Shown: positions 5,343-22,215 of the stretch, piece after piece
Numbering within the stretch: the first letter of the stretch is position 1
Layout: each line of letters starts with the position of its first letter
Assembly (NCBI GenBank): GCA_018003015.1
Contig: JAGNEZ010000004.1
Coordinates: 53,430-117,429, forward strand
From: Phycisphaerae bacterium
GTDB taxonomy: Bacteria > Planctomycetota > Phycisphaerae > UBA1845 > PWPN01
Direction: 5' to 3'
Length of the DNA stretch: 64,000 nucleotides
The notes under the pieces: model-generated
Told to the model about the DNA's origin: nothing
Database searches by the model: none
Seen by the model: only the letters and a program-made list of their open reading frames with translations
Translations under genes and position numbers: made by a program

Positions 5343-5774
5343 ATTGCACCTCGTTGCGGCCATAGTCTGCGCAGTCCGTGTATCCGGGGCGATTGAGCGG
5401 CGAAACTCCCTGGCTGGAGCATACGATACGTGGATGACGGAAGGGGAACTCCCTGGGAGCGATCTGTCGCTGCTCAGTATATGGGACGTGTTTGGAGCAG
5501 CTCTGTCCGGGGCAAGCCGCCGCGAGCAGCCGTTATCGGCCAAGTTCAATTTCATAGCCGCAGCGCTTCGGTGGCCTCGTCAACAGCGACGTGCCAGTCG
5601 CCGAAGGGTATCATCTCCATGACCGCCGAACCGGCATGCGCTTGGCCTGTGATCTCAGACCCAATCGTCGCGGCCATCGCCTGCCCGAGGGCTCAGGTTC
5701 GTGTTGGCGGGCCGTATGCTGCCTGATCTGCGGCCTGGGCGATGTGATCATTGTCGAGCTGTGCGGCGACGACC
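5343..5774. other. Intergenic gap upstream of the RTX gene
   Basis: This stretch separates the RTX gene from the end of the prepilin-like gene, both on the minus strand. The RTX frame stays open up to a stop at 5580-5582, so part of it could be coding if ATG 5555 is the true start. I see no other convincing gene, RNA or terminator. Confidence 0.5.
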
Positions 5775-6707
5775 TCAGTGCAGCCTCCAGAGGTATCCTG
5801 ATTGGCGGTCGGGGCGGGCCTGCTTGGTCAGGTTCGGAAAGTACGTGTCGCGCGCGAGCTGCTCCGGCCAGGCCAGATGGGCTGAACCCAGGTGGACGGG
5901 GACCCAACCTCGCTGTGTGACCCAGTCCACGTGGCCGTCGAGAAAGCCGATGTTTCCGCCCGCCTGCCCGTGATTGTTGGTGGCCTGGTCCGGCCAGTTG
6001 TTGTACACATGCGCGCCCAGGACGACTCCTCCCGCGCCGGAATCATCCGGGTCCTGATCGCTGTCCACGAGGATGAACTGGACGGACGGTCTCTTGGTTG
6101 TCTTGAGCGTGATTCGTCCGGTTTCATCATAGCGCAAACCGTTAGGAAAGATGCCCGCGCTGTGCCAGGCGAAGACCTCGTAACTGTGGCCGCCCCGATT
6201 GGTGAGACGCGTGCCGTTAGTCGGTCCTCTACCGTCGTCGAAGCGGTGCCAGGCGGCGTGCGAGAGGTCTGGGTGGACGGTCAATTCCAGGTAGTACTCG
6301 AGTCGGGTCTGCCACGCTCCGCTGTTGTCCTTGACGAGATCGCCGATGGCCAGCTTCTGCTTGGAGGCCGGTCTGGAGAGGCTGACCACGTTACGCGTGG
6401 AGGGGCAGACGGCGGTGCGGCCTTCCTTCAGGTACTTCGGGTAAAGGTAGTACAGACCGTCGTCTGCACCCTCACTTGTATAGACATAGACGCCTCTCTT
6501 GGCGTCATCCATGGCGTGGAGAATCATGGCCGTCGTGATCTGTTTGACATTGGACCGGCATACCACGCGGTGGCTGCCCTCCCGCGCTCTGTTAAACGAT
6601 GGTACCAGTATCGCGACCAGAAGGGCGATGATCGCCACGACGACCAGGACCTCGATGAGCGTGAACGCGCCGCATCGGATTGTCTTGAGTCCAGCCAATG
6701 CACTCAC
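5775..6707 (-). CDS. Prepilin-type N-terminal methylation protein with H-x(n)-DG tail (pseudopilin-like)
   Basis: A short basic leader ends in CGAFTLIEV and is followed by a single hydrophobic helix, the class III signal of type IV pilins and type II secretion pseudopilins. The leader has Ala where Gly is usual just before the Phe, as is common in planctomycete members. The C-terminal part has NNHG...[11 protein letters not shown], the H-x9-DG-like signature of the large planctomycete/PVC prepilin family, here with 10 residues between His and Asp. It is expected to be processed by a prepilin peptidase and sit in the inner membrane with its globular part outside. GTG 6707 or TTG 6698 are likely starts; the longer frame to 6818 lies inside the preceding coding remnant. 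The start is 2 bp after the stop of the DNRLRE/dockerin remnant, so the two may be co-transcribed. Confidence 0.8.
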
Positions 6708-6709
6708 CT

Positions 6710-7456
6710 TCAGAGGCAGCCCGGCTCTGCCAGTTCTGTGCCGCTGTAGCAGGCCTGAAGAATGCCGAAGTCGACCTGGTCGACATCCTGATCGCTGTCC
6801 AAATCGGCCATCGCGCACTCGCCGCTATAGGGAATCGCCGGGCCCGAGGCGCAGTTGACGAAGAGGGTGACGTCCGCTTGGTCCACGTAGCTGTCACCAT
6901 TCAGGTCCGGGACTCGGCTGGGAACCAACACCACCAGTTGAGGTGGGAAGGCACCTTCCTTGAGCCAGTGGATCTTCCATCCGTCGTCCGATGCGGACTC
7001 GATGATGAGTCCCTTGTCGACTTCGCCGGCCTGCCAGCCCTTGACCGTGTCCGTGATTTCGAACCAGGCTTGGCTGTCCCAGATCAGGCTTTCGGCGCTG
7101 GCAATCATCGGTCCGATTGTGCCGCCTTCCTCAGTGGGGCCATTCTCGCCGAAGTCGCTCCAGAACCGCAGCCCGGGTGCGCCATCGGTCAGTGTCCAGT
7201 TGAAGTCCACCAGCAGCTGCCGGACATTGAATGGGCCGCCGGTCCGGGTCTGGTAGCTCTCTGAGCGAGGAGCGGTTGTGACGACCAGGTAAGCCTTGAG
7301 GATCTGGGCGAGGGGGGGGACCTTGCCGGTACCGTTGCCGAACAAATCGTCGAACTTGACCAGCGCGTGGACCGTGTTTGTTGTGTCGGGCGCCGCGCCG
7401 CGTTTGTCAAGATACTCGGTGACGTACTCCTCGCCGAGAGCCGTGAGACCGTCCAT
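6710..7456 (-). pseudogene. DNRLRE-domain/dockerin-like protein lacking its N-terminus
   Basis: The segment encodes the later part of a DNRLRE-type beta-sandwich (ALVKFDDLFG, then PPLAQILKAYL, then WFEITDTVKGW, then GLII) and a C-terminal pair of dockerin-like calcium loops (DLNGDSYVDQADV and [13 protein letters not shown]). Such proteins are normally secreted and begin with a signal peptide and further domains. Here the recognisable sequence begins abruptly at about 7465, where it meets a truncated oxidoreductase in another frame. The only local start, ATG 7456, has no signal peptide or ribosome site. I therefore call it a 3-prime gene remnant, though read-through from upstream could still express it. 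Confidence 0.65.
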
Positions 7457-7838
7457 CCGCAGCAACGAACACGGCCTCAACCGCCTTGTCTTTGACCAGC
7501 TCTTCAAGCGAAGGGTACGTCTTCTCGCAGCGGCACGCTTTGGCCAGCTGGGCACACCGCTCGGGCATGAGATCGCTTACGGCTACGACTCTGACATTAG
7601 GATGGTCCTGGAAGCTGAACGCTGCTCCAAATTTGCAGACTCCGTATCCGACAATGCCGACGCGGATCTTGCGGTCGGAGAAGGGCTTCCAGCCCTGAGT
7701 GCTGTCCGCGTCGGCAGGCGCTGCCGCAAAACCCGGGATTGGCTTTTCCTCGGACCGGGCAGAGCCCTGAAGTCCCAGCGAGGCGGCGCCGACACCCATT
7801 GCCTGCAGGAACGAACGGCGCGTCGAAGAGTCATACAT
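7407..7838 (-). pseudogene. Truncated Tat-exported Gfo/Idh/MocA family oxidoreductase
   Basis: ATG 7838 is preceded by AGGAGG at ideal spacing. The product begins with a twin-arginine leader (STRRSFLQAMG) followed by the NAD(P)-binding Rossmann start (RVGIVGYG) and the conserved VVAVSDLMPERC and YPSLEELV segments. After VEAVFVAA, at about 7470, the family similarity stops and about 15 unrelated residues lead to a stop, giving 143 residues instead of the usual 400-450. The dinucleotide-fold Gly motif is present but the catalytic C-terminal domain is absent, so no activity is expected. The sequence after the break is the DNRLRE/dockerin gene in a different frame. Confidence 0.7.
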
Positions 7839-8511
7839 CGCATGTCCTCCTGGAATGTGTCCCCGATGACGATGACTACCCAGCTTTGCCTCGGGAGTCA
7901 ACAGGAGGAGGTGGTGCTGGGTCCCCGGGGCAGGGCAATCGCATCTGAATCCCCTGGCCCAGGATCCTGATGAGGTAGTCTTCCCGTAAGCCAGCTCGTA
8001 GTCGTTTGCTTTTGAGGCTGGCTTTGCAGGCATGCAGCAGGGAGGGGCCTTGAATCTGACCAGAGGAACGGGACGGGGGAACGCCACCATTTGTGGAGCG
8101 CGGGGTGAGCAGGGCAGCCCGAGGTCGACGACGGTTCGGCAATCTGGCCGCGGTAGCCCGAGGAACGGGCAACCAGACCGGCACAATGGATCGCCCGAAC
8201 CGGCCGGTGCCTGGCCACCCAGCGAACCGGCCGAACCCTCCCAATCAGAGCCGCTGGACGGCTGGGAATCCAGGAACGCCCACTGGGGAGACCGACAGTC
8301 GACCCGGATCGGATCGGTTTGCCTCAATTCTCGACTCGCTCGGCTACGATAATAAGGACATGGCGGTACGGACCGCCCACTAAGCTAGACGCCCGGGGCA
8401 GGATGCGACTGGCGAAGATCTGATCCGATCCGGCGGCACAGAGAATGCTGTCCCGTGAGGCACCTGCGCCCCGTTGACACCAGCGGCTGGAGATGCAGAA
8501 GGGAGAACGAG
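7839..8511. other. Intergenic gap of about 670 bp
   Basis: Apart from the possible promoter near 7873-7901, I see nothing that can be named. A minus-strand open frame at 7876-8244 (segment LREDYLIRILGQGIQMRLPC) has a slightly protein-like composition at about 7930-8050 and could be a coding relic. It has no start signal and I do not recognise a family. Confidence 0.3.
7873..7901 (-). promoter_or_regulatory. Possible sigma-70-type promoter of the truncated oxidoreductase
   Basis: On the minus strand TTGACT (7901-7896) is followed after 17 bp by TAGTCA (7878-7873), about 35 bp before the ATG at 7838. The -35 matches well and the -10 is weak. Confidence 0.3.
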
Positions 8512-8688
8512 ATGTCCAAGTTGAAGCAATGGATGCTGATCGCGGCGGTCATCCTGGGTGGGGTCGTCTCCATGGGTGCCGATTGCGACTTCACACTCCG
8601 CGGAAGCGAGGACGGCCTTCGGCTCGACGTCGGCAACGACGACGACGACAACAATCTCCTTGAAGATCTCGAGGACCTCTTCGATTGA
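8512..8688 (+). CDS. Small exported acidic protein, unknown function
   Basis: A 58-residue product starts at ATG 8512 after GGGAGAACGAG. It has a basic start (MSKLKQW), a hydrophobic segment (about residues 8-21) ending near SMGA, then a short mature part that becomes strongly acidic (GNDDDDNN, LEDLEDLFD). A Cys follows the hydrophobic stretch (GADC), but this is a poor lipobox, so secretion or a degenerate lipoprotein signal are both possible. It stands alone and I know no family for it. Confidence 0.5.
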   Translation: MSKLKQWMLIAAVILGGVVSMGADCDFTLRGSEDGLRLDVGNDDDDNNLLEDLEDLFD

Positions 8689-9043
8689 GTTCTCCAGCAT
8701 CCTCAGGTCCGGCATCTGCGGCAACCGGCTGCCGCTCCTCCATTTCCCCTCGTTTTCCGCTTGGCCACCCAACGCGGCGGGGTGACCCCGGCGTGAGGCG
8801 GCTTCGGTCTCCAAGCGGCCTGGAGCCTCGGCCAAGAACGGATGGTTGATTCAGCTCGCAATTCGCGTTCCAGGTTCGGCACCCACGACGATTCGGGGGC
8901 CCTTCACGGTAAGCCGGGTTGTCGATGGCACGGATCAAGCGCTGTCTCTCGGAGCGGTGGAGGATCTTTGACGGCAGGAAGGGCGAGCCAAGCCGGCGGC
9001 TCAGCTCGCGACAACCGTCGTCTGTTGCCGGCAGAGTCCCCCT
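8689..9043. other. Intergenic gap between convergent genes
   Basis: About 350 bp between the small acidic protein and the end of the DUF5107-TPR gene. No gene or clear terminator hairpin was recognised. Confidence 0.4.
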
Positions 9044-12040
9044 TCATTCCGATTTCAGCCCCGCCTTGTCCAGAAGGGTCTCGGCTTCCTGCGTCCGGCC
9101 GAGTTCCTTGATGGCCCCCGCTCTGGAGCGGATCTCATCTGCACCTGACGCTCTCGATTCGGCGGCAGCCTTGTGAAAGTACTCGTCGGCCTGTTGCTTC
9201 CTCGCGAGGGCTTTGTAGCAGCAGCCCAGCTTATAGTGCTCGACGACGTAGACTGGATTGTCGGGTTTGCCCGTTCCGAGGTTCTCCGGATACTCCATCG
9301 CAGCCAGAAGGTCCTGGATCGCTTGCTCGTGTCGCCCCTCGCGCATGAGAGCGTCGGCACGTGTACGGTGAGCGCGCAGATAGACCTCCCGCGCCCCCGT
9401 CCATCCTTCCCACGGATGGAAGGTGGCGTTTCGCAGGATCTCGAGAGCCTCAGCCTGGCGGTGGTCATCGATCAGAAAGGCTGCTCTCCTGAGCAACAGA
9501 TTGCAGTTGCGGCCGACGTCGGCAGGAAGCTGGGTGAACAGCTCGGCTCGCCTGTCCTTTCGCCCGGATAGCTCATAGAGGCGATCCAGCGAAACATACA
9601 GGTTGGGGTCCTCAGGATCGCACGCGATCGCTCTCTCGTACTCGGCCGCCGCCTTGTCATGTTCCTTCAGTTTGGTCCAGTAGATCTCTCCGAGGTTCCG
9701 ATACAGGGTCGCGTATTTCGGCGCCCCGGCCCGCGATTGCTGGAGATGGACCAGACCTTCCTGCCATCTCATCCGGGCGCTCAGGAGCGTGCCCAGGTAG
9801 TAGTGCAGCTTCCAGTCGTCCGGGAACCACGACAGACCCATCCGAAGAACAGTCTCGCTTTCCGTCCGGAACGGGAAGACATAGTCAGGAGACAATTGCG
9901 AGCCCTTGGAGAAGTAATCGCGAGCGGCTGCATCCTCTCCGCGCTTCTGGCAGTAGTACCCGAGATGATAGTATACGAACGGATGCCGGGCCGCGTTTCT
10001 TCGCTCCTCGTACAGTTTGAGGGCGGCGATCGCATCATCGATCAGGTTCATCTCTCCGTAATCACACGCCGTCTCGATGTAGTACTGCGGATCATCGCGG
10101 AGCAGCCCGAGCTCGTCGGCGCCGCCCTGCAGGTGGCTTTCCACCGCGGCCAACGCGTTCAGCGGATCGTCCTCGAGGACTCCCCGAACGATGGCGGCCG
10201 CCTCGTCAGCTGAAACCCGCCGTCTCAACGCCGCGGCGAGAAGGACACGGGCCTTAGGATCGTCCGGGTTGTGCCGAACCGCCTGGCGAAGGTACCGCTC
10301 GGCCGCGACCAGATCGTTGCGGCCGACCGCCATCGAGGCCAGGACCAGCGGCGCGACGTGCCGGTGGGCCGCCCGCCGCCCAACCATGTGAAGGTCCTCC
10401 TCGGTTCTCTCGCCAACGCCGAGTCCGATCTTGCACAGCGCCCGGTAGTAGCGTGCGGCATGCTGGTCCTCATTTCGTTCCAGGGCACGCTGGAACAGGT
10501 CGAGTGCCTCCTTGAGGCGGCTCGTCTTGTAGTAAACGAGTCCGAGCGACTCCGAGGCCGTCGCGAGCCCGGGGTCTTTTCGCAGAGCCTCCTGGAAGCA
10601 CATCACCGCCTTCTCGATGTCCCATTGTTTCAGGGCGTAGTGGCCCGCCAGCTGCGCCTGCTCTGCGGTGAGCTCGCCGCGGTCAGGCATGACGGGCTGA
10701 AGCTCGGGGCGGGAAATCGGCGGCTTCTGGGTCGAGTAGAAGATGATCTCGCGGTCGCCAGCATCGAGGACCAGCAGACGGTACACCGTACCGGTGCCGT
10801 GCAACGGGATCTGCCTGACCAGCGGTGTCGAAGGGCTGATATCGACTCGCTCGCTGTGTATCTCCGTCTCGCCACGGAATACCTTGACGCAGCTGTTCGG
10901 AAAAGGCCGGGTCACGTTGACCGCCGCGATGACGTCGCCACCCTCAACACGGAAGTTGACCGCGGCATCAGAATTCGCTTTGACCAAGCCCTTCATTTTC
11001 TTGAGGGCATACCAGTACTCGTCCCAGCTCTCCTGCATATGAGGCTCGAAGATCCATGTATCGCCCTGAGTGGGGCATCGGCCGGACTGGACTTCGATAT
11101 ACTGTCCATCGTTGTCGGTCAGCATGTCCTCCCATATCGCTCCGCTTCGAGCGGTTCCCCAGGTCCAGAACTTCTTGCCGGGCGATTCCAGGGAAGAAGC
11201 GCAATGGGCCATCCCGCAATCGCGGTCCATGTTGTAGACGCCGTTGAAGTCGCCGGGGACACCGCAGAAGTAATCAGCAGGGTAGGGGATGTTCTTGTAC
11301 CAGGATTTGTCGATCCCTCCGTGGAGAGGCCACGGTTCGGGATTGGCCCGCCGGCTCGCGTAAGTGTAGTCCGTGGGTGGGAAGATGACCTGGGTGTCCG
11401 CCCAGGCGTGGCTCGCGGCGTTGGCCCAGAAGTAGCCGTTGTTGTGCGTCAGCGTCGGATTGAACAGGGTGATCCGGGTCCTGAACCAGGACCGCTCCGG
11501 ACAGACAGTCGTGGCCACGGTCCAACGCATGCGGCGAACCCACTCCGTGGCCCCCACGACGCAGGTCACGCTGCCGTCCTTGCCGCGCATGATCTTGTAC
11601 TGCACCGGCGAGACCGTGTTCACCGTGTGCCCGAGCGTCGGGAAGTTCCATTCGATGCCGCCGGACAGCCACGCGCCGCGCAACGCCACCAGCCCCGGCT
11701 TGATGACGTGGTTGTGGTAAATGAAGTCGAAGTCGCCGTGGGTCTTGTCGTGAGCCGCATAGAGCCGCCCTCCAAGATCCGGCAGAATAAGCACGCGCGT
11801 GAAATCGTTTTCCAGAATGACGACTCGATGAGAGACCATTCGCTTGTCTCGCGTGATGTCCGTCTGAGATGGATAGGGGTAGACGTTCTGGTTCCACAAG
11901 GGCGGGCTCTTGTCCTCCGGCCCCAGAACGTAGGTGGGTATGTCAAGCCTCGTCTCCTCGATCGAAACGCCGCCCGCCCCAAAGAGCAGGGGGCCGATCG
12001 CCAGCATTATCCCTGCTGCCAGGGCAATCGTGTTCGTCAT
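9044..12040 (-). CDS. Exported DUF5107-TPR protein
   Basis: The 998-residue product starts at ATG 12040, preceded by GGAGGAGG. It opens with a signal peptide (about residues 1-23). Residues about 25-350 match DUF5107, a beta-sandwich domain related to galactose-mutarotase-like folds; landmarks are LILPDLGGRLYAAHDK, GGIEWNFP and WGTARSG. The remainder, about residues 450-990, is a series of TPR helices (AGHYALKQWDIEKAVMCF, GLVYYKTSRLKEALDLF, YHLGYYCQKRGEDAAARDYF, YLGTLLSARMRWQEGL). Proteins of this architecture commonly occur in polysaccharide-utilisation regions, and a carbohydrate-binding or scaffolding role is inferred from the sulfatases upstream on the same strand. The active residues of a glycosidase cannot be assigned. 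Confidence 0.8.
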   Translation of the reverse strand: MTNTIALAAGIMLAIGPLLFGAGGVSIEETRLDIPTYVLGPEDKSPPLWNQNVYPYPSQTDITRDKRMVSHRVVILENDFTRVLILPDLGGRLYAAHDKTHGDFDFIYHNHVIKPGLVALRGAWLSGGIEWNFPTLGHTVNTVSPVQYKIMRGKDGSVTCVVGATEWVRRMRWTVATTVCPERSWFRTRITLFNPTLTHNNGYFWANAASHAWADTQVIFPPTDYTYASRRANPEPWPLHGGIDKSWYKNIPYPADYFCGVPGDFNGVYNMDRDCGMAHCASSLESPGKKFWTWGTARSGAIWEDMLTDNDGQYIEVQSGRCPTQGDTWIFEPHMQESWDEYWYALKKMKGLVKANSDAAVNFRVEGGDVIAAVNVTRPFPNSCVKVFRGETEIHSERVDISPSTPLVRQIPLHGTGTVYRLLVLDAGDREIIFYSTQKPPISRPELQPVMPDRGELTAEQAQLAGHYALKQWDIEKAVMCFQEALRKDPGLATASESLGLVYYKTSRLKEALDLFQRALERNEDQHAARYYRALCKIGLGVGERTEEDLHMVGRRAAHRHVAPLVLASMAVGRNDLVAAERYLRQAVRHNPDDPKARVLLAAALRRRVSADEAAAIVRGVLEDDPLNALAAVESHLQGGADELGLLRDDPQYYIETACDYGEMNLIDDAIAALKLYEERRNAARHPFVYYHLGYYCQKRGEDAAARDYFSKGSQLSPDYVFPFRTESETVLRMGLSWFPDDWKLHYYLGTLLSARMRWQEGLVHLQQSRAGAPKYATLYRNLGEIYWTKLKEHDKAAAEYERAIACDPEDPNLYVSLDRLYELSGRKDRRAELFTQLPADVGRNCNLLLRRAAFLIDDHRQAEALEILRNATFHPWEGWTGAREVYLRAHRTRADALMREGRHEQAIQDLLAAMEYPENLGTGKPDNPVYVVEHYKLGCCYKALARKQQADEYFHKAAAESRASGADEIRSRAGAIKELGRTQEAETLLDKAGLKSE

Positions 12041-12344
12041 CGCATCCTCCTCCCATCTGGATTACCACGGCTCTCTCACCTCGAGACATCTCAGGCATCT
12101 ATGACTCGAACGTCGAGCGGCGTCCGTCATTCTACAGCGATTCGTCCCCGTCGCGCTACTCGTCTACAGGAGACACCCTCGTCAGCCGGTATCACCAGCC
12201 TCTCGGTCGGCTCCTGGAGGCCGCGGACGCTCCGGCTTTCCCGACCCCCGGCCGATCTCATCTGTCCGCCGAACAACCTCTGGCGACACGGGAGGTGAGC
12301 CACGCCGCCGTTCTCATGCCCTGAAAGCAGGGACCGGGCCCTCA
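12041..12344. other. Intergenic gap
   Basis: About 300 bp between the sulfatase and the DUF5107 gene, both on the minus strand. It holds the ribosome site of the downstream gene; no promoter or terminator could be picked out with confidence. Confidence 0.35.
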
Positions 12345-13781
12345 TCAAGGTTGACGGGTGGTGCCGGATCGCGGCGCAAGCGCCGGCACGGTCTTTCTGC
12401 CGGGCCAGGGGTAGTTGTCTCGTCCCGCACTCGCCTCGATCGGACCCTCGGGCAGACTTCTGTGCCAAGCCAGGACCTTGGCCGCCAGCTGTTCCACCAG
12501 GTCCTGACGGCGTTCGGCGAGGTTGTTGAGTTGTGTCGGATCGCTGGGAATGTCGTACAGCTCCGTTCGGCTGCGGTCCGGGTTTGTGAGCAGCTTCCAG
12601 TCACTTTCGCGGATGGCCAGCATGGGGCTGCGGTGGAACGGTTCGCCGGGTATGTTGAATCGCCATTCCCACATCAGCGGTGTTCGCCGTGGCCGCGCTG
12701 ATCCCAACAACACATCGCTCATGTCCTCGCCATCCAGGGGGTGTGATGCCGGCGGCTGAATTCCCGCCAGCGAACACATCGTCGGCAGAAAATCGACACC
12801 GGCGACGACGGACCGGTCCTCGACTCGTCCGGCGGGAACGTGTGACGGCCAGCGCACGATGAAGGGCACGCGAATGCCGCCTTCGTACAGGCTTCGCTTG
12901 CGGCCTCGAAAAGGCCCGGCCGAGCCGACACCGCTGTGCCCCGCGTTCACGATATGGATGTCCTCTGGTCCGTTGTCGCTGGAGAAGATCACCAGCGTCT
13001 CATCCGCCAGGCCGAGCTCCTCCAACCCCTCCAGAAGTCGCCCGATCTGCTCGTCAAGGTCGCCAACGGAGGCATAGTAGATGGCCTCTGCGCCCTTGTG
13101 CCGGATGCCCGAACCCGGATTGAGGTGGTTGTAGGGCCGCATCTGCTCTTCCGTCGGATTCAGCGTTGCGTGCGGCAGCAGCGTCCAGAGGTTGACGTAG
13201 AAAGGTCGATCCTTGTTGGCTCTGATGAAACGCAGGGTCTCATCCACGAGCAGGCGGGTGGATTTCGGCCAGAACTGATCCGGCGGCTCGGACCAGCCGG
13301 GATTCACCGAGACCATCGTCCGGGCCTGGTCAAAGCCGTAGGCGGTTGGGTCCGGGGCGCCCAGCCCGGCTCCCAGGTGCCATTTGCCGAAGTGCGCAGT
13401 GGCGTAGCCCGCCGTCTTGAACAGAGCGGCCACGTTCGGAACCTCTGGGTCCAGCCAGTTGGACATCCCGCGACGGGCGTTCAACTCATGGCTGGCGAAG
13501 TGGCCGTGGATGCGGTGCCGGGCGGGATACTGGCCGGTCATGAACGCGCAGCGGCTCGGGGAGCAGACCGAGCCATTGACATAGAACTGGGTGAACAGCA
13601 TGCCCTGGGTGGCAAGCCGATCAAGCCACGGTGTCTTCAGCTGCCGGTGGCCGTAGCAGCTCAGATCCCCCCAACCCAAGTCGTCAGCCAGGATGAACAA
13701 CACGTTGGGGCGCTCGACGGGTTGCCTGGCCCAGGCGAGCTCGGAACCGAAAACAAGAAGCAGCAAAACGAGGGTCCTCAT
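12345..13781 (-). CDS. Sulfatase (S1 family, arylsulfatase-like), exported
   Basis: The product is 478 residues with a signal peptide (about 1-19). The formylglycine signature is CSPSR with Cys73, which must be oxidised by a formylglycine-generating enzyme. Metal-binding Asp33-Asp34 lie in the N-terminal ILADDLGWGD strand, and the second metal site is in FSSDNGPED. GKWHLG, typical of the active-site Lys/His segment, is also present. The C-terminal region has the usual ESDWKLL and ELYDIPSDPTQLNNLA motifs. It would hydrolyse sulfate esters from a sulfated glycan in the periplasm or outside. Its start lies 39 bp after the stop of the tandem sulfatase, so the two are probably one transcript. The substrate cannot be told from sequence. 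Confidence 0.9.
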   Translation of the reverse strand: MRTLVLLLLVFGSELAWARQPVERPNVLFILADDLGWGDLSCYGHRQLKTPWLDRLATQGMLFTQFYVNGSVCSPSRCAFMTGQYPARHRIHGHFASHELNARRGMSNWLDPEVPNVAALFKTAGYATAHFGKWHLGAGLGAPDPTAYGFDQARTMVSVNPGWSEPPDQFWPKSTRLLVDETLRFIRANKDRPFYVNLWTLLPHATLNPTEEQMRPYNHLNPGSGIRHKGAEAIYYASVGDLDEQIGRLLEGLEELGLADETLVIFSSDNGPEDIHIVNAGHSGVGSAGPFRGRKRSLYEGGIRVPFIVRWPSHVPAGRVEDRSVVAGVDFLPTMCSLAGIQPPASHPLDGEDMSDVLLGSARPRRTPLMWEWRFNIPGEPFHRSPMLAIRESDWKLLTNPDRSRTELYDIPSDPTQLNNLAERRQDLVEQLAAKVLAWHRSLPEGPIEASAGRDNYPWPGRKTVPALAPRSGTTRQP

Positions 13782-13820
13782 AGACGGTCCTCATGGTCGC
13801 CGGCGGAACCACGATCTACG

Positions 13821-16559
13821 CTACTGCGGCAGTGCCTTTCCGCCCTCTGCGGCTCTGTCGTCGCTGATCGACTTCAGCCAGGCGGCGTGTTCTCTCAGTA
13901 GTGCATCGACCACCTCGGGATGCCTGAAGCGCAGGTTAACCTGCTCGCCCGGGTCGCTGTCCATGTCGGATAGAAAGATGCCATCCACTCCTTGAGCGCG
14001 CCTGGCCTTGGCGCCTGGATTGTCCTTTGAATGGACCAGATCGACGTAGCCATTGCGAACCAGCTTCCACTTGCCCTGGCGCACCGCCGACTGATTGTCC
14101 CACTCAAAGCACAGCGTCTTGTGGCCGGGGGCGTCGGGGTTGAGGAGGAACGGCACCCAGCTTCGGCCTTCGATGGCGCGGTGGACGGGTGCTTCGCCAC
14201 CAAGGACTTCGGCTACGGTGGGGAAAAGATCCATAGCGATGGCCAGTTGGGAGCGAGTCTGGTTGCCCGTCACGGCGGCCGGCCAGCGCAGAACGCAGGG
14301 CATGTGGATGCCGCCATCGAAAAGGCTGCGTTTGTACTCACGGTACGGGTGATTGCTGCCGCCACCCTCGCCGCGCAGAGAAGGAGGCGCGCAGCCGTTG
14401 TCGCTGGTCAGGATGACCAGGGTATTCTCGGAAAGCCCGCGTTTGTCCAGATGCTCCAGGATCACGCCCACGGCTTCATCCAGACCAGCGACCAGGGCTG
14501 CGTACTCGGCTCTAGCCTTGGGCACTCCGGGGTAGGTCTGGCGGTGCCTTGCCTGCGGGACCATGGGGTAATGCGGGGCGTTGAACGCGACGTAGAGCAG
14601 GAACGGGTCCTTCTGATGCTTGTCGATGAACTGGATAGCTTCCCCGGTGAACAGGTCGGTGGTGTGTTGACCCTCCAGGTGGACTTCTTCGCGGTTGCGA
14701 TAGAGGTCATGAAAGTACGAGTCGGTCCAGTAGTTCATGTGTGAGTAGTAATCCACCAGCGAGGAATAAAAACCGAAGAAGAAATCGAAACCCTGATTAT
14801 GGGGTGAGGATTCCGGCGTGAAGCCAAGGTGCCATTTGCCGATCGCCCCGGTGGCGTAGCCGGCGGCTCTGGCGAGTTCGCCGAGGGTGGTCTCTTCGGC
14901 CGGCAGGCCCGGCTCACCCGACCGGCCGGCCATGTTCTTCTCGAGCGAAAGACCAATGCGGGCGGGGCTTCTGCCGGTGAGCAGGGCGGCGCGCGAGGGG
15001 GCACACAGCGGGGCGGCGCTGTAGTAGTGGGTCAAGCGGATTCCGTCGCGGGCGAGCAGGTCGATGTGGGGCGTCCTGATATCCTTGCAGCCGTAGCATC
15101 CGATGTCCCCAATGCCCAGATCATCGGCCAGGAAGATGAGGATGTTGGGCTTCTTCCCCGAAACATCCGACGGGCTGAACGCAAGATTGCGTCTGGCCCT
15201 GGAATCGATGCCACTCTCTTCCTTTCCCCTCTCCGGATGCTGAGGAAAGGGCAACGATTGACCGCTCGGGAGCGAGTCAAGGGCCGCCATGAGCCTGGTC
15301 TGGGCGGCCTTCGCTTCCGAGTCAAGGCTACTGGCGAGGTCCCGCTTTTCCTCCGGGTCGGCGTACAGGTCGTACAATCTGCCGTCGGAGGTCAGCTTGA
15401 ATCTCCGGTTGCGAATGACCCGTTTCCGGCCGTACTGCGAGTAGATCCAGCCGCGGCGAGGTCGGGGCTCCGGCTCGCCCAGCAGGGTGGCCGCAAAGGA
15501 CTGGCCGTCGATGGCGATCTCCTTGAGCGGCCTCACGCCGGCGAGTTCGAGAAGCGTGGGTAGAAAATCGGAGAAGTCAATCAGTTCATCGCTCACCCTG
15601 CCTGCGGGCGTCTTGCCGGGGTAGCTGATGATCAGCGGGACACAGATGCCGGTCTCCAGGAGCGTGGCTTTGCCGCCGTCGACCAGCCGGCCATTCATCC
15701 GGCAGGGCACGCCCTTGACGGTGCCGTTATCCCCGACGAGGATGACCATCGTCTTGTCGCGGATCTTGAGATCGTCGAGGACTTCGAGCAGCTGGCCCAC
15801 CTGGTGGTCCAGGTAGTCCACCATGCCGGCGAAGAGAGCAGTGCCCTTCAGATTCCGGTCGCGGTTGAGCGGGGTCGTGGTCAGCGGCGTGTGGGTGAGT
15901 ACCATGGAGTGAAAGGCCAAGAACGGACCGTTGCGGCGGCGCCTCATGAAGTCAATGAGGTAATCGTTGAACACATCAGGGCCAAACTTGCCCGTGCAAT
16001 CAGGCCGCCGGCCGTCGGTCTGCACGAAGGGGTCGAAGTACCGTTCGGTGACGCGGTTCTGGCCGGCCTCGGCCCCCGGCCAGACGCAGTGTTCGTCAAA
16101 TCCGTGGTGCCAGAGGGCGTCCGGCTGACGGCGGAGGTCGTTGAGCTGCCACTTGCCGCCGATAGCCGTCGCATAGCCGGCATCACGCAGGTAACGGAAG
16201 AACGTGACCTCCTTGGTCCAGTCGAAGTACGGCTCTCCCCAACGCGGCACGTCGTGGTGAATGACCCAGCCGGTGCGGAATGGGTAGCGACCGGTGTAAA
16301 GCACGTGGCGACTCGGCGTGCACAACGGCGTGGCATAGCAGTGGGTGAAACGCACACCCGACTTGGCCAGACGGTCAATACTGGGCGTGGCGTGCTCACT
16401 GCCGAAGCAGCTCAGCCACTCCGGGCCGAGGTCATCGACGAGAATGAAGAGGATGTTCGGTCGCTCGGCACCCCGGGCGGCGGGGGCAACCAGAGCCAGC
16501 AACAGCCAGGCGAAAAGCGAACAAAACCGAACCAGTGCATGGATTCCGGGTCCGAGCAT
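13821..16559 (-). CDS. Tandem double-domain sulfatase, exported
   Basis: The 912-residue product contains two complete S1-type sulfatase domains in one chain. ATG 16559 follows GGAG; the signal peptide covers about residues 1-31. Domain 1 (about 33-430) has the metal strand ILVDDLG with Asp42-Asp43 and the formylglycine motif CTPSR at Cys80. A linker rich in Gly, Arg and Ser follows (about 440-475). Domain 2 (about 476-900) restarts with PNILIFLADDLG, has CAPSR near residue 519, GKWHLG and LTSDNGCAPP. Both domains therefore keep the catalytic Cys and metal ligands. Two sulfatases are usually neighbouring genes, so this is a fusion. The domains differ enough to suggest two specificities acting on one sulfated glycan. 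Confidence 0.88.
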   Translation of the reverse strand: MLGPGIHALVRFCSLFAWLLLALVAPAARGAERPNILFILVDDLGPEWLSCFGSEHATPSIDRLAKSGVRFTHCYATPLCTPSRHVLYTGRYPFRTGWVIHHDVPRWGEPYFDWTKEVTFFRYLRDAGYATAIGGKWQLNDLRRQPDALWHHGFDEHCVWPGAEAGQNRVTERYFDPFVQTDGRRPDCTGKFGPDVFNDYLIDFMRRRRNGPFLAFHSMVLTHTPLTTTPLNRDRNLKGTALFAGMVDYLDHQVGQLLEVLDDLKIRDKTMVILVGDNGTVKGVPCRMNGRLVDGGKATLLETGICVPLIISYPGKTPAGRVSDELIDFSDFLPTLLELAGVRPLKEIAIDGQSFAATLLGEPEPRPRRGWIYSQYGRKRVIRNRRFKLTSDGRLYDLYADPEEKRDLASSLDSEAKAAQTRLMAALDSLPSGQSLPFPQHPERGKEESGIDSRARRNLAFSPSDVSGKKPNILIFLADDLGIGDIGCYGCKDIRTPHIDLLARDGIRLTHYYSAAPLCAPSRAALLTGRSPARIGLSLEKNMAGRSGEPGLPAEETTLGELARAAGYATGAIGKWHLGFTPESSPHNQGFDFFFGFYSSLVDYYSHMNYWTDSYFHDLYRNREEVHLEGQHTTDLFTGEAIQFIDKHQKDPFLLYVAFNAPHYPMVPQARHRQTYPGVPKARAEYAALVAGLDEAVGVILEHLDKRGLSENTLVILTSDNGCAPPSLRGEGGGSNHPYREYKRSLFDGGIHMPCVLRWPAAVTGNQTRSQLAIAMDLFPTVAEVLGGEAPVHRAIEGRSWVPFLLNPDAPGHKTLCFEWDNQSAVRQGKWKLVRNGYVDLVHSKDNPGAKARRAQGVDGIFLSDMDSDPGEQVNLRFRHPEVVDALLREHAAWLKSISDDRAAEGGKALPQ

Positions 16560-17482
16560 GTGAGGCTCCAGCCTGTACGGTTTACCTGTGCGGGCCGCTT
16601 CGGTCAACAAGTGTGACGAACGACAGGGGCCCACCGCGAGCCGGAGGCGATGGGGGCTTGGTCATTACCCCGGATACCGGCGGTATCCGTCGAAACAGGC
16701 GGTATCGTGGTGCCATGCCTCGGCGTGTCGGGCTTCAGCTGGCTCAGGTCGGTCGGGTAGCAGTCAACGCAGTGGAGGATTATTCCCGAGGGTCTTCGCT
16801 GATGCAACTCCATCGACTCACGCAGTTGTCCGTCACAAGCTTCCCCAAATCTCCGAACGCGTCGAGGCGCCACGCGTTGTTCGCCGGGCCATCACTGCGG
16901 ACGGCGGGGTGAGGGAGGGGGGCCCATCACGATCGTTTCGCTGTCGGCCATCGGGCACTCCGTTTTCGTTGATTCCGCCATGCAACGTGCGTATGCTCGC
17001 CAAGTGATTGGCCCGCGGATGCCGGTCGGTGTGACCGACGGCGGGGGGCAAACACCGGGGTATGGGCCTGTCTGTGGAGGCCGTGACTCCCGGTGTAAGA
17101 AGAAGGTGACGCCTGGGATGCGATGGACATGCGCCTGGTCGACAACGCCGAGGTTTCGGTAGATCTGCCATCCTGGCTGGGACTCCGTCACGCGTTTACG
17201 ATTGATGCCGCCGAGCTGCAGAGCATCTCGCTCAAGCCAGGGGATAGCCAGTCTCGATGTCACGTGGAACACTTGCCCTCATTCGGTTGGTGGCTATCCC
17301 GGCCGCCCCGTCGCTACAGAGTGAACTGTAGAGTTTCAACACGGGCAGGTTCGCCCCTGCGTGTGGGAGCTCTTCAACCCGGCGGCGGGTCCGGCTGGTT
17401 GAATGGGATGTGCGGACCCGATACGGGTAATCGTGAGCCAGAGCCTCGTAGGCAACGGCCCGAGTGATCGCAGGAGGACATC
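16560..17482. other. Intergenic gap of about 920 bp between divergent genes
   Basis: It separates the minus-strand sulfatase group from the plus-strand sialidase-like gene and should hold both promoters. Several short overlapping frames exist, but none has a start signal, a family signature or protein-like composition. I could not identify a gene or RNA. Confidence 0.35.
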
Positions 17483-18907
17483 ATGCAACGCTCACGCTTC
17501 CTTGGCTCCGGACACGGCCGGAAACGCCAATGGTCGGCATTTTTCATCTCACTGGCCGTTACTTTGGCCGGTGTAGGGCCACATGCACGGGCAGACGACC
17601 AGCCTTCGCCCGCCGAAGTTCAGACAATCCTACAACGCGAGGCCCGGCGCAGCAGACCGGACTACATCATCTACATCCCGCGCCACTGGGACGGCTCGGC
17701 CCAGGACTCGCACAACGAGCACCTGCTGGTCTTCGAAGGCCCCCGCGGCTGGCTGATGGCGGTCTGGACTCAGTCCCTCAAGAAGCCAGGTCCCGCCAAT
17801 CGGATCGTCTTCGCACGCTCGAAGGACGGCGGCGCAACCTGGTCGCCACCCGTGCACGTCGCCGGCCCACGCTCAGCCGAAAGCCCATCCCATATGGCCA
17901 GTTGGGGTTTTCCCATGGTCTCCCGATCCGGCCGGATCTACGTGATCTACAACCAGCATCAGGGCCTCAGCGGCTGGATTCCCATGCACACCGGCACGAT
18001 GGACGGCACCTATAGCGACGATGACGGCCAGACGTGGTCCCGGCCCCAGACCATCCCCATGCCCCACAGTCCCTATGATGATCCGGAAGGAAAGACGCCC
18101 GCTGAGTGGATCGTCTGGCAGATCCCGAGCCGCGATCTGGACGGCAAGTACTTCGTGGGCTACTCGCACTGGATCAACCGCGAACGGGCATGGCTCAAGG
18201 AACCCGAGAACTGGACGCAGATCGAGTCTGTGTGCGAGTTCATGCGCTTCGAGAATGTGGACAACGACCCGGAGGTGAGGGATCTCAAGGTGAGCTACTC
18301 GGGATGGGGTGACCATGCGTTGCGCGTGCCGCACTACCTCTATCCCCAGATGAGTATCGCGCAAGAGCCCAGTACGGTCCGCCTGCCCGACCAGCGGCTG
18401 TTCTGCGTGATGCGCACAAACACCGGCTACATCTGGTATAGCCTCTCGGCGGACGACGGCAGGAATTGGGGTAACCCCCGCCCGCTGCTTCGTAAGGATC
18501 ACGGCCGGCCGATCCTGCAGCCGGTCGGCTGCTGCCCGATCTACCGCTTGGCTGACGGCCGGTACGTGCTCCTGCATCACAACAACCGGGGCGACATCAC
18601 GACAAAGCCCGACCGAACCTCCGAGCCGCGCCGGCCAGCCTTCATCGCTCTGGGTGCGTTCCGCCCGGCCGCCGACCAGCCCCTCTGGTTCAGCGAGTCC
18701 AAGCAGCTCATGGACAATGACGGCGTTGGACCGGATGGAGCGAAGGCCAGTCCCGGCCGTCGGGTCAACACGAACATCGGCGTCTACAGCAGCTTCACGA
18801 CATACGGTGGCAATGACGTGCTTTGGCATCCCGATCGCAAGTGCTTCCTGCTCGGCAAGAAGATCACCGCCGAGTTCCTGGCCGATCTGGTTGTGCCGGG
18901 AGGATAG
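17483..18907 (+). CDS. Sialidase-like exo-glycosidase/BNR-repeat protein, exported
   Basis: A 474-residue product begins at ATG 17483 after AGGAGG. A signal peptide ends near residue 37 (ARA-DD). Three Asp-box motifs mark a beta-propeller: SKDGGATWSPP, SDDDGQTWSRP and SADDGRNWGNP. These repeats occur in sialidases and several related exo-acting enzymes and binding proteins. I did not establish the full sialidase arginine triad, so the exact activity is uncertain. Its location next to three sulfatase domains suggests removal of terminal sugars from a sulfated or host-like glycan. Confidence 0.72.
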   Translation: MQRSRFLGSGHGRKRQWSAFFISLAVTLAGVGPHARADDQPSPAEVQTILQREARRSRPDYIIYIPRHWDGSAQDSHNEHLLVFEGPRGWLMAVWTQSLKKPGPANRIVFARSKDGGATWSPPVHVAGPRSAESPSHMASWGFPMVSRSGRIYVIYNQHQGLSGWIPMHTGTMDGTYSDDDGQTWSRPQTIPMPHSPYDDPEGKTPAEWIVWQIPSRDLDGKYFVGYSHWINRERAWLKEPENWTQIESVCEFMRFENVDNDPEVRDLKVSYSGWGDHALRVPHYLYPQMSIAQEPSTVRLPDQRLFCVMRTNTGYIWYSLSADDGRNWGNPRPLLRKDHGRPILQPVGCCPIYRLADGRYVLLHHNNRGDITTKPDRTSEPRRPAFIALGAFRPAADQPLWFSESKQLMDNDGVGPDGAKASPGRRVNTNIGVYSSFTTYGGNDVLWHPDRKCFLLGKKITAEFLADLVVPGG

Positions 18908-18945
18908 GGGTACGGCTCGGATGCTGCCGCGCCGGTATCCGTCGA

Positions 18946-19188
18946 TCACTGCGTCGGGATATTAGCGCAGTCCACCGGCTGGCCGTTCTCGTAGCAGAAC
19001 CGCTCAATGGTGCTGGTGGTGCTGAAACCCCCGAGACCACCGGTCAGCAGGTTGGCCAGAAACGTGCCCACAAACGTGGATGTGCCCCAGGCAAGGAACT
19101 TCTCGCCCTTGCAGCCGGCGCCCATCAGGCTGACCGTCACCAGAACCAGCAACAACCGAGCAAGCCGTCGTTTCCTAACTACACGCAT
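18946..19188 (-). CDS. Small probable lipoprotein, unknown function
   Basis: ATG 19188 follows GAGGAG at good spacing. The 80-residue product has a basic start (MRVVRKRRLARL), a hydrophobic segment and GAGC at about residues 23-26, a degenerate lipobox. The mature part is short with Gly-rich LLTGGLGGF and ends with CYENGQPVDC, where two Cys could form a disulfide. It is convergent with the sialidase-like gene with 38 bp between stops. No family recognised. Confidence 0.55.
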   Translation of the reverse strand: MRVVRKRRLARLLLVLVTVSLMGAGCKGEKFLAWGTSTFVGTFLANLLTGGLGGFSTTSTIERFCYENGQPVDCANIPTQ

Positions 19189-20095
19189 TGGATACTCCTC
19201 TCGCTGAGCCCTTGCGGTGCGTCGACCATGACGTACCCATTGCCTCGCGCCGTGAATCAGGACCGCTACCCGGCGGCCGATCGGCCAGAAGCCGCATCCA
19301 GATCCGGCAATTCCACCCTCCGGAAGGATCATCCGTCCGCGCCTGACGGTGAGCCACGCCACTCACCGCCGGGCCTCCTCGGAAGAGACCGCCGGGCGTC
19401 CGCGGGCAGTCCCTGCCCCACGATCGGAGGACGATTCCATCTTACCCGGAATCACGCTTGAGTTCCCTCTGCCCGCCGGAGCTTTTCGCAGAACCAGCCG
19501 GACCGGCGTCCACTTGGCCTGAAGTGGCCTTGCTGACCTCCAGGTCAGGGGCGTCCTTCCGGTACAGATTCCCGACACCCCGGATCAGGTTCAACAGACA
19601 GGTGGGGCCGTACTACAGGGTGATCACTGTGTCCTCCGCAAAGGCGGGAAAGTACTCCCGTCTGGCGGTCTTGTCCTTGGCGAAGAACGAACCAGTGAAG
19701 GCCCTGATCATCCGGTCGGTAGCCTTGCCGGTTTGCCAACAGCCCGTTTCAAGAGGCTCCACGCCCCAGTCGTGCTTGGCCCGATCGCACATCACACCCG
19801 TCCGTCGAAAACTGGACGCTGTCGGTGGCCTTTTCCCCCTTCTTCAGGGAAAGACCCCATAGGAACAGCTTACGCCGACAGTAGTTCTGAGACACTCGCC
19901 CCGAGGCCCCAAGGGGCAAGGAGGGCAAGGGCAGCACGCCTTATCGCGGCGCCCTCCCGTGTTTCAGAATCGAACAGGAAAGCGGGAATCCTGGTCGGGA
20001 ACCGACAGCCATATAGGGAGAAGGAGAAACTGACTCACCTCGGCGGCCAGACAAACGGAGATCGTCGCCGAGCCTTGATAGAAGGAGATCCGCAC
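19189..20095. other. Intergenic gap of about 900 bp
   Basis: Only short frames without start signals are seen. A 60-codon minus-strand frame (19613-19795, segment MIRAFTGSFFAKDKTARR) looks somewhat protein-like but has no ribosome site and no family I recognise; it may be a relic. Confidence 0.3.
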
Positions 20096-20542
20096 ATGGT
20101 AGCTCCCGCCTCTGCAGAAGTCGTCTTGAGCACCTTGGCCATGAAGCCGTCACGGGCCTCCGCCGCGGCCATCGGGCATCACTATGTCCTCGACGGTGCC
20201 CCGTCCGCGATCCGCCTGCGGGCCGTGGATTTGCTCTGCGGCATGGTATGCGATTGGAGCGTGGCCCTGCTCGATGAGTTGATCAACTCACCGCACGCCG
20301 ACTACGTCCTCCGACAATACGCTCTGCACCGGGTTCACGAACTGCTTAAGGTGGCGATGAGCCGCGGATACGCACACCTGGGCCCGCCCGAGTGCCGTCG
20401 CTTGATGACCCGAGCCCGGTGCGAGCTGCAGCACCGCTGCATGCGGGATGGGCAGCCGGGCATGCCGGCGGTGGACGCACTCTGCAGCCACCTGGGGCAA
20501 GCGGTGGCCGACGGTCTGTTCGGGGCTCTGCCGGACTTCTGA
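20096..20542 (+). CDS. Hypothetical helical protein
   Basis: ATG 20096 is preceded by AAGGAGATCCGCAC, which decides the start against longer frames. The 148-residue product is predicted mostly helical (LRAVDLLCGMVCDW, VLRQYALHRVHELL), with five Cys and no signal peptide or membrane helix, so it is probably cytosolic. It lies 103 bp upstream of the ECF sigma factor on the same strand, but a promoter-like sequence between them suggests separate expression. No family recognised. Confidence 0.5.
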   Translation: MVAPASAEVVLSTLAMKPSRASAAAIGHHYVLDGAPSAIRLRAVDLLCGMVCDWSVALLDELINSPHADYVLRQYALHRVHELLKVAMSRGYAHLGPPECRRLMTRARCELQHRCMRDGQPGMPAVDALCSHLGQAVADGLFGALPDF

Positions 20543-20549
20543 GATGACG

Positions 20550-20579
20550 TTGTGCCAGGCCACGTGAGACGGGTACAAT
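20550..20579 (+). promoter_or_regulatory. Possible sigma-70-type promoter of the ECF sigma factor
   Basis: TTGTGC (20550-20555) and TACAAT (20574-20579) are separated by 18 bp and lie about 70 bp before GTG 20646. Agreement with the consensus is good at the -10 and moderate at the -35. Confidence 0.4.
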
Positions 20580-20645
20580 GTCCGTCGCCATTTCCTGGCC
20601 GATGACCGGGGCGTGGAGAGACGTCGACAGGGACGGAGCCCTCAC

Positions 20646-21236
20646 GTGGCCACGACGACAAGCACCGTCTTGCTGAGCCAGCTGAAGGATGCCCGCAACG
20701 ACCGGGCGTGGTCGGATTTCGTGCAACGCTACTGGAGATTACTGAACGCCTTCGGCCTGAAACTCGGCCTCGGCCGGGAGGATGCTGCGGATGCCGCACA
20801 GGAGGCCTTGGTCGCTTTTGTCGAAGCCTACCGGCAAGGGCGGTATGAACGTGACCGAGGCCGCCTGCGACATTGGCTGTTTGGCATCGCCCGGAACAAG
20901 GTCCTGCACATGCTCCGCAGCCGCGCCGCCCAGCACGTCGTGAGCCCCGAGGGAGGCAAGTCTGATCTGCTGTTCAACGTGCCTGACGACCAGAGCATTA
21001 GCGAAGTGTGGGAACTCCAGTGGCGTCAGGCCGTCTTGCGGGCATGCCTGGACCAGGTCAAGTCAGAGATGAGCCCCGAGACCATCCGAGCCTTCGAGCT
21101 GATGGTGTCGGGAGAGGTGTCTTCGGGGGTCGCTGCAGCCCAACTGGGCATGACGGTCAACGCAGTCATGAAGGCCAAGCGACGCGTGCTCGTCCGCATG
21201 CGCGAGGTGTACCGTCAGATGGAAACCGATTGGTGA
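20646..21236 (+). CDS. ECF-type RNA polymerase sigma factor
   Basis: From GTG 20646 (GGAG upstream) the product is 196 residues. Region 2 is recognisable as RAWSDFVQRYWRLL, then REDAADAAQEAL (2.2) and RGRLRHWLFGIARNKVL (2.3-2.4). Region 4 is the C-terminal helix-turn-helix with GVAAAQLGMTVNAVMKAKRRVLVRMRE. The STVLLSQLKDARNDRAW opening is typical of the planctomycete ECF groups. No anti-sigma factor or sensor is adjacent, so its signal is unknown. A longer frame from 20613 is possible but has no better start. Confidence 0.85.
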   Translation: MATTTSTVLLSQLKDARNDRAWSDFVQRYWRLLNAFGLKLGLGREDAADAAQEALVAFVEAYRQGRYERDRGRLRHWLFGIARNKVLHMLRSRAAQHVVSPEGGKSDLLFNVPDDQSISEVWELQWRQAVLRACLDQVKSEMSPETIRAFELMVSGEVSSGVAAAQLGMTVNAVMKAKRRVLVRMREVYRQMETDW

Positions 21237-22215
21237 GCGACAGCCCTCCGTCCAGGACTTTCGGGTGCAGCCGGGAGTGGCCGCCGCCCCTGTTCCTTTG
21301 GGGCGTAGCCGGAAGGTGCGGAAACTGACCTGATCGATGTTCCCGTCCTGGGCCAGGTCAAATGAACCGGCTGAACCGGCTGGCTGCGGGAACACATCAA
21401 TTGAGCCGACGGCTCTCGGCAACCGGCCCCTCGCCCCAGGGCGATGGCGCCGCGTTTCTGCAGAACCGGCCCACGGCCCGTTCAGCCAGGTTTATGACCG
21501 TCGAGGCGGTCGTTCGAATGACCAATCTGACAGGCAACAGATACATTGTGTACAAACGGGCTCCCAGCTCGAGTGGGAGCATCAGACCCGGCTTCTGGTT
21601 CCGGACGATTGCAAAGACCGTCAACGGCGTCAGCATCCAGGGGATCGAAGGTATCATTATCGGCACCGGCGGCAACGACCGGATCAGCGGGACCATCAAT
21701 GTGGCTGATGGTCTCTGGCATCATACGGCGATGCCTGATGACCATGATGATTGGCTATGCGGCCAGTTTGGCGTGGCAGCGCGACCCTGCCGAAAGCGAC
21801 GGTTGGTCCGGTCCCCCGAACGCGATAACCGTCCAGTCACCGCCGTGAGTGTCCTCCGCAGCCGGCTTGACTCGCGCCGCGCCCTCCCGGCTCGACTAGA
21901 ACCAGCCATCTCCGACTGGAGGCGATCACACGTCGTGATCATGGGCGGGCTACGCAGGCCCACAGCTTCTTCATGCCACGGGGTGGCACGGCACGTCCGC
22001 ATCCTCGGCGATCCGCCAGGAGGGCCAACCTCCGACCGCCAGAGGCAGATCGCACCTCGCCGTTCGGTCTCGCGAGACCCTCGAGCCGGCCTCCCGCAAT
22101 CCTCGGGAAAGCCGAGCCAGGTCGCACTACATACGGCCTGCGGATCACAAGCCTTGTGCAAGCGTCTGGCAGGAGCTACGATGAACCCCCTGTGCCTTTC
22201 GGCAAGGAGAAAGCC
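21237..22215. other. Long gap holding a LamG remnant
   Basis: Nearly 1 kb after the sigma factor. The only recognisable content is a fragment of a LamG-like domain at about 21482-21735, described separately. The rest shows no gene with a start signal. Confidence 0.4.
21482..21735 (+). pseudogene. Remnant of a LamG/concanavalin-like domain
   Basis: In one plus frame the residues FMTVEAVVRMTNLTGNRYIV, then GFWFR, then GTINVADGLWHHTA follow the order of a LamG-type beta-sandwich (strand 1 FTVEAWV, later the DGQWHHVA strand). The similarity starts without a signal peptide and breaks off after HHTA, where the sequence becomes low-quality coding. It looks like a decayed piece of a larger secreted protein. 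Confidence 0.5.

Follow-up and report, generated by a model that had tools for sequence, protein, structure and literature searches.

Two sulfatase domains from different branches in one planctomycete gene, conserved in two species of a genus and including a GKWQ domain

Genes that encode two sulfatase domains are not new in planctomycetes. As far as the excerpted text of a 2016 report goes, one gene of the Porphyra-associated planctomycetes P1 and P2 carries two sulfatase domains that are unrelated to each other, and a fusion of adjacent genes is offered as the likely explanation (PMC4807772). The excerpt of the SulfAtlas paper states that proteins with several sulfatase modules were split and the modules classified separately (PMC5066984), and sulfatase-glycosidase fusions are described in the corresponding part of PMC6388578. 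Here, we describe a gene encoding two sulfatase domains in a 64,000 nucleotide (nt) stretch of the Phycisphaerae bacterium contig JAGNEZ010000004.1 (positions 53,430 to 117,429), hereafter the window.

The gene resembles the P1/P2 gene, as that is portrayed in the excerpt, in that both are planctomycete genes combining two unrelated sulfatase domains, and it fits the same kind of double-sulfatase fusion: two complete domains that are not sisters, in one frame, from separate genes. It differs in having a first domain from a clade that carries the motif GKWQ and a second domain that is nearest to subfamily S1_19 among solved structures, a distinction drawn from the description of the P1/P2 gene and not from its sequence. 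The multi-module proteins of SulfAtlas, again by the excerpt, have the same kind of architecture and make it a class known since 2016, although that excerpt singles out no individual pair. Thus, the architecture is already known. The domain pair is new and is conserved in two species, which adds a case of that kind to a little-studied architecture.

One frame with two complete sulfatase domains

The gene is on the minus strand (Table 1), and its 912-codon frame, from 16559 to 13821, contains no internal stop. Two stretches of the 912 amino acid (aa) product match PF00884 (Sulfatase), with a total of 346 bits, and SGSH_C is also matched. A preliminary description of the window had proposed two complete sulfatase domains in one polypeptide, and the Pfam matches, the motifs and the full folds all bear this out. 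It correctly gave the formylglycine motifs CTPSR and CAPSR, here located at C80/R84 and C519/R523, and metal-binding Asp pairs, here D42-D43 and D479-D480, but left the strand unstated and overlooked that domain 1 reads GKWQ, with Q138 as its last residue, where most sulfatases read GKWH; the equivalent residue in domain 2 is H577. By alignment column, 10 of 10 catalytic positions are kept in domain 2 and 9 of 10 in domain 1. Domain 2 has the sulfatase fold, C/S-x-P/A-x-R, the metal Asp pair, GK-x-H, the catalytic His, D-N and Lys that characterise S1 sulfatases. Domain 1 has the S1 fold and catalytic signature 1 (C-x-P-x-R), and does not match the His-ending form of signature 2, with Gln at that position. 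As this His is not universal in S1, the Gln does not exclude domain 1 from the family.

The two domains were modelled separately, a mixed whole-protein alignment having put relatives of domain 1 on domain 2. The model of domain 1 (predicted local distance difference test, pLDDT, 91.7; predicted template modelling score, pTM, 0.93) matches solved sulfatases over nearly its whole length, with 7stv (Z 43.2, root-mean-square deviation (rmsd) 2.7, 392 aligned residues) tied with S1_19 enzymes such as 6psm (Z 43.1, rmsd 2.7, 395 aligned) and followed by 9fo1 (Z 41.6, rmsd 2.7, 384 aligned). By sequence, the best match of domain 1 is the S1_16 kappa-carrageenan sulfatase 9fo1 when a single sequence is used (2.3e-47) and the Pedobacter sulfatase 7stt/7stv when a profile is used (7stt, 2.5e-73), both at 30-32% identity and, unlike domain 1, both with GKWH. 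The domain 2 model, built from 13 sequences, is moderate (pLDDT 73.6, pTM 0.83). Its fold is closest to 6psm (Z 41.2, rmsd 2.2, 391 aligned), but other structures score within 1 Z of this, among them 8eg3 (Z 41.1), a human steryl sulfatase. By sequence, 6bia is best (1.4e-66), followed by other carrageenan sulfatases, several of them labelled S1_19. The S1_19 carrageenan sulfatases (PsS1_19B, 6psm/6prm; Ps i-CgsB, 6b0j/6bia; ZgCgsA, 9hh2) are therefore the closest in sequence to domain 2 and share the top fold matches with 8eg3 and others, but they are only 32-33% identical to it over the structural alignment. With identities of only about 30% to the nearest solved relatives, neither a subfamily nor a substrate can be claimed for either domain.

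Only one signal peptide had been proposed, together with a clear linker, and both claims hold. Using the best 12-residue Kyte-Doolittle mean as the measure, the hydrophobic stretch ahead of domain 1 scores 2.53, whereas the linker ahead of domain 2, which is hydrophilic and 26 residues long, scores -0.58, and no second signal peptide was found there. The linker contains no in-frame ATG or GTG, and a single TTG lies just ahead of it.

A sequencing error and a frame break in relatives had been named as the findings that could overturn the fusion. A relative was available in another species of the genus (G001; loci L032 and L061), where one stop-free frame on a 940-kb contig matches residues 1-912 at 92% identity; a frame break was sought in this one congener, at L061, and none was found. 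The codon alignment of the two genes has no indel over 912 codons, the sole gap columns being due to a longer upstream frame in the relative. Gene order is also kept, with positions 8017-16761 and 17428-21248 of the window collinear with L061 at 88-93% identity. As the same fusion is carried by a second species, we conclude that the frame is real, and the loss of a stop codon through sequencing error appears to be excluded for practical purposes. Non-synonymous (dN) and synonymous (dS) divergence between the two species are 0.039 and 0.193 in domain 1 (dN/dS about 0.2) and 0.026 and 0.174 in domain 2, values that indicate purifying selection on both halves. In the 26-codon linker, dN is 0.18 and dS 0.09, based on 11 nucleotide differences, which are too few to weigh.

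Origins of the two halves and other double sulfatases

Elsewhere in the family, the genes that best match each domain are separate. For domain 1, they are 65% (G007), 59% (G003) and 56% (G004) identical, and for domain 2, 56% (G005, G010 and G003) and 55% (G006). In the draft assemblies G003 and G004, genes of the two types lie on different contigs. Sulfatase domains were gathered by similarity to the 912 aa protein and, once near-duplicates had been removed, 195 were placed in a tree. Domains 1 and 2 fall in different clades of this tree, and domain 2 is placed among stand-alone genes from the family (a seven-row group with support 0.999). Because the set was gathered by similarity to this protein, it gives no estimate of the prevalence of double sulfatases. 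All seven of the nearest separate domain-2 genes (L034, L035, L154, L037, L039, L040 and L041) have a hydrophobic leader, scoring 2.1-3.3, where the fused domain 2 has the hydrophilic linker. Such a pattern is expected if two genes fused and the inner signal peptide was then lost, and the gene appears to have arisen in this way. An internal duplication was considered and rejected: the two domains share about 30% identity and lie in different clades, and the nearest family relatives of the halves are separate genes with leaders of their own.

The genome that contains the window has 32 PF00884 matches and, among the frames listed, only this one holds two complete sulfatase domains. In G001, G003, G004 and G007 together there are 126 matches, and the counterpart in G001 is the only two-domain frame; five more genomes of the family (224 matches) yielded no second double frame among the matches listed. 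A search of the phylum, in which the two best candidates in each of 392 genomes were scored, and a subsequent scan of 168 source sequences found at least three further double-sulfatase frames (L149, L151 and L159; see Table 1), with different partners and orders. In the tree, domain 1 of L149 (entered as L120) groups with L155 and L119, and its second domain with L015, then with L018, L151 and others. In L159, the GKWQ domain is second and the domain before it groups with L066 and L021, while L151 has no GKWQ domain. FastTree supports on the branches that place these domains range from 0.15 to 1.0, and only their gross placement is used here. As the pairings differ, common ancestry of all the double sulfatases found is unsupported.

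These fusions share the missing inner signal. No signal-like stretch precedes the second domain in L149 (0.38) or L159 (-0.72), and the linker of L151, too short to score, reads hydrophilic. Of five fused frames, including this gene in two species, the four that can be scored ahead of domain 2 are all at or below 0.38, while a leader of at least 1.6 is present in 165 of the 180 frames with a single sulfatase domain. A second domain with no signal peptide of its own is thus a pattern common to the other fusions scored here.

An arrangement in G258 (L148:3364-6003, minus strand) shows how close neighbours can lie to fusion. There, a single TGA separates a GKWQ gene from the next sulfatase gene, which is in the same frame and has a start and a signal peptide of its own, and both belong to a series of five sulfatase frames that share one orientation. 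This is one step from a fusion. As the second gene is outside the nine-member clade of domain 2 of the window gene, it is not a direct ancestor of the fusion described here.

Several other candidates were set aside. Matches in G343 (L150, with one TAG) and G177 (L152, with one TAA) span parts of both domains and contain no double frame. L082 ends within what may be a further double frame, left uncounted: a sulfatase frame there is followed, up to the end of the locus, by residues 1-57 of a second one. Among plasmid records, 868 matched, all at less than 60% identity, and 248 cover 80% of the query in one place. In the matches listed among these 248, the places are about 1.2 to 1.5 kb, and both domains align to one single-domain gene; these listed matches were rejected as double sulfatases.

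The GKWQ clade and the activity of domain 1

On balance, we think it probable, though well short of assured, that two genes fused to give this one, that its product is a single exported polypeptide whose two sulfatase domains are both of the formylglycine type (S1) and belong to different branches, and that this protein works as follows. The gene has a continuous frame conserved in a second species, complete folds and motifs, a single signal and halves of separate origin. The fusion would have removed the stop codon of the first gene and the signal peptide of the second, leaving a single signal peptide to export the whole protein. An aerobic enzyme of the formylglycine-generating enzyme (FGE) type would convert the Cys of CTPSR and CAPSR to formylglycine. 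The two domains might then each take off a different sulfate, either from one glycan or from adjacent ones, possibly alongside the third sulfatase, whose gene lies immediately downstream. As the preliminary description suggested, the fusion might also serve to supply both activities in equal amounts and to direct them at one polysaccharide. On the evidence of its residues, activity of domain 2 is a well-founded expectation, while that of domain 1 is uncertain.

The doubt about domain 1 arises from Q138. The excerpt of the SulfAtlas paper gives His115 of AtsA, which aligns with Q138, as the proposed catalyst of the elimination that releases sulfate from formylglycine, and the signature 2 His as 81% conserved in S1 sequences, with H, L, G or N allowed in the updated signature (PMC5066984). 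Domain 1 belongs to a clade of 70 sequences (support 1.0) that have Gln at this position in 64 cases, His in two, Arg in two, Lys in one and Gly in one. Outside the clade, Gln is found in 0 of 125 sequences and His in 106; nine of the 125 have Thr at the column of the formylglycine Cys, which we took for misalignment and left in the counts. The clade occurs in many Planctomycetota and Verrucomicrobiota records, and in two labelled Acidobacteria. No description of the GKWQ clade was found in the open-access literature searched. The clade is the more useful by-product of this analysis, as it presents a natural His-to-Gln change, directly testable, at a residue that has been assigned a step in the S1 mechanism. 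Its sequences include many of loci L062-L118 and L121-L134.

A number of observations weigh against the working enzyme proposed above. In domain 1, the proposed elimination base is replaced by Q138. Gly or Glu occupies the column of the formylglycine Cys in eight of the 70 clade members, and of the 59 sequences in an inner clade nine have Asn for the second metal Asp and eight have Ile for the Lys at K297. Together, Q138 and this catalytic variation make the activity of domain 1 uncertain. Nor is the pair a generally conserved partnership, as domain-1-type genes lie beside another sulfatase (within 700 nt domain to domain, on the same strand) in only 6 of 57 cases; the association is weak, in a count in which the locus had room upstream for 51 and downstream for 46, some being cut by contig ends. 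The neighbouring genes, which encode a DUF5107 and tetratricopeptide repeat (TPR) protein and a BNR-repeat protein, leave the substrate unnamed. In favour of the proposal, the genome has 17 matches to the FGE-type family PF03781, and none over the cut-off, with two weaker matches, to TIGR03942, one model of an anaerobic sulfatase maturase. This pattern fits Cys-type sulfatases matured by FGE, as permissive evidence only, because PF03781 is broader than FGE.

The Gln itself can be interpreted in two ways. It is possible, if doubtful, that domain 1 represents an uncharacterised branch, some of whose members are without the formylglycine Cys, in which the His has become fixed as Gln and either another base releases the sulfate or a different ester is the substrate; the conventional sulfatase beside it could then finish or gate the reaction. 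Alternatively, domain 1 could have weak sulfatase activity or none and be retained for binding or for structure, with domain 2 alone catalytic. We regard this as unlikely. Apart from the Gln in place of the elimination base, losses within the inner clade speak for it: the Cys column has Cys in 50 sequences, Gly in six, Glu in two and a gap in one, a member that is a fragment, and the Asp of D-N-G is Gly in four, Asn in two and Lys in one. However, domain 1 of the window gene keeps the Cys, the Arg, both metal Asp residues, the Asp-Asn, both Lys residues and the other His, and its dN/dS of about 0.2 is that of a domain under purifying selection. With Gln in 56 of the 59 and Cys kept in 50, the substitution looks like a family trait rather than decay. 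We read the fixed Gln as a probable trait of the clade, and the variation elsewhere, nucleophile included, as likely decay or change of function in the members concerned.

It is improbable that the precursor is cut in the linker after export to give two separate enzymes, with the fusion serving only for co-export. The linker does contain the basic stretch GIDSRARR, which is identical in both species while much of the remaining linker varies, but a basic stretch shared by two related sequences carries little weight, and GIDSRARR is absent from the linkers of L149, L151 and L159. An artefact of assembly or sequencing that joined two neighbouring genes has a negligible chance of being correct, and L061 in effect refutes it. 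The two assemblies are drafts and double sulfatases are rare (one frame per 32 PF00884 matches in this genome and one per 126 in the four family genomes), but the architecture is identical and indel-free in the second species, on a long contig, and the linker has neither an ATG or GTG start nor a second signal peptide.

Gene neighbourhood

Table 1. Features of the double-sulfatase locus in the window and double-sulfatase frames at other loci
Feature	Location	Coordinates	Strand	Details
Double-sulfatase gene	Window	13821..16559	minus	ATG at 16559, stop 13821-13823; 912 aa/codons
Signal peptide region, aa 1-31	Window	16467..16559	minus	Hydrophobic stretch 2.53; sole one in protein
Sulfatase domain 1, aa ~32-440	Window	15240..16466	minus	D42 D43, C80-x-P-x-R84, K136, Q138, H223, D277 N278, K297
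Codon for Q138	Window	16146..16148	minus	Position of AtsA His115, by alignment column
Linker, aa 441-466	Window	15162..15239	minus	26 residues, hydrophilic; contains GIDSRARR, identical in congener
Sulfatase domain 2, aa 467-912	Window	13824..15161	minus	D479 D480, C519-x-P-x-R523, K575, H577, H663, D720 N721, K743
Third, single-domain sulfatase gene	Window	12345..13781	minus	39 nt downstream; same 39-nt gap in L061
DUF5107 and TPR protein gene	Window	9044..12040	minus	Next gene downstream of third sulfatase, 304-nt gap; collinear in L061
Double sulfatase, 919 aa	L149 (G448)	3475-6231	plus
Double sulfatase, 986 aa	L151 (G351)	2683-5640	plus
Double sulfatase, 934 aa	L159 (G246)	1059-3860	minus

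The third sulfatase gene is possibly co-transcribed with the double-sulfatase gene, and the BNR-repeat protein gene lies divergently upstream of the latter. Beyond the DUF5107 and TPR protein gene, a frame of Gfo/Idh/MocA type (7407-8327, minus strand) overlaps the next frame, and its match to PF01408 covers only positions 1-76 before it ends. Near here, at 8017, the window ceases to be collinear with the congener, and nothing in L061 matches the C-terminal part of the frame; the gene appears to be truncated or rearranged. The frame at 6710-7555 (minus strand) has a type I dockerin domain (PF00404, just over the cut-off), and that at 5775-6818 (minus strand) has a prokaryotic N-terminal methylation motif (PF07963) and may be akin to the pilin-like or DUF1559-like proteins of planctomycetes.
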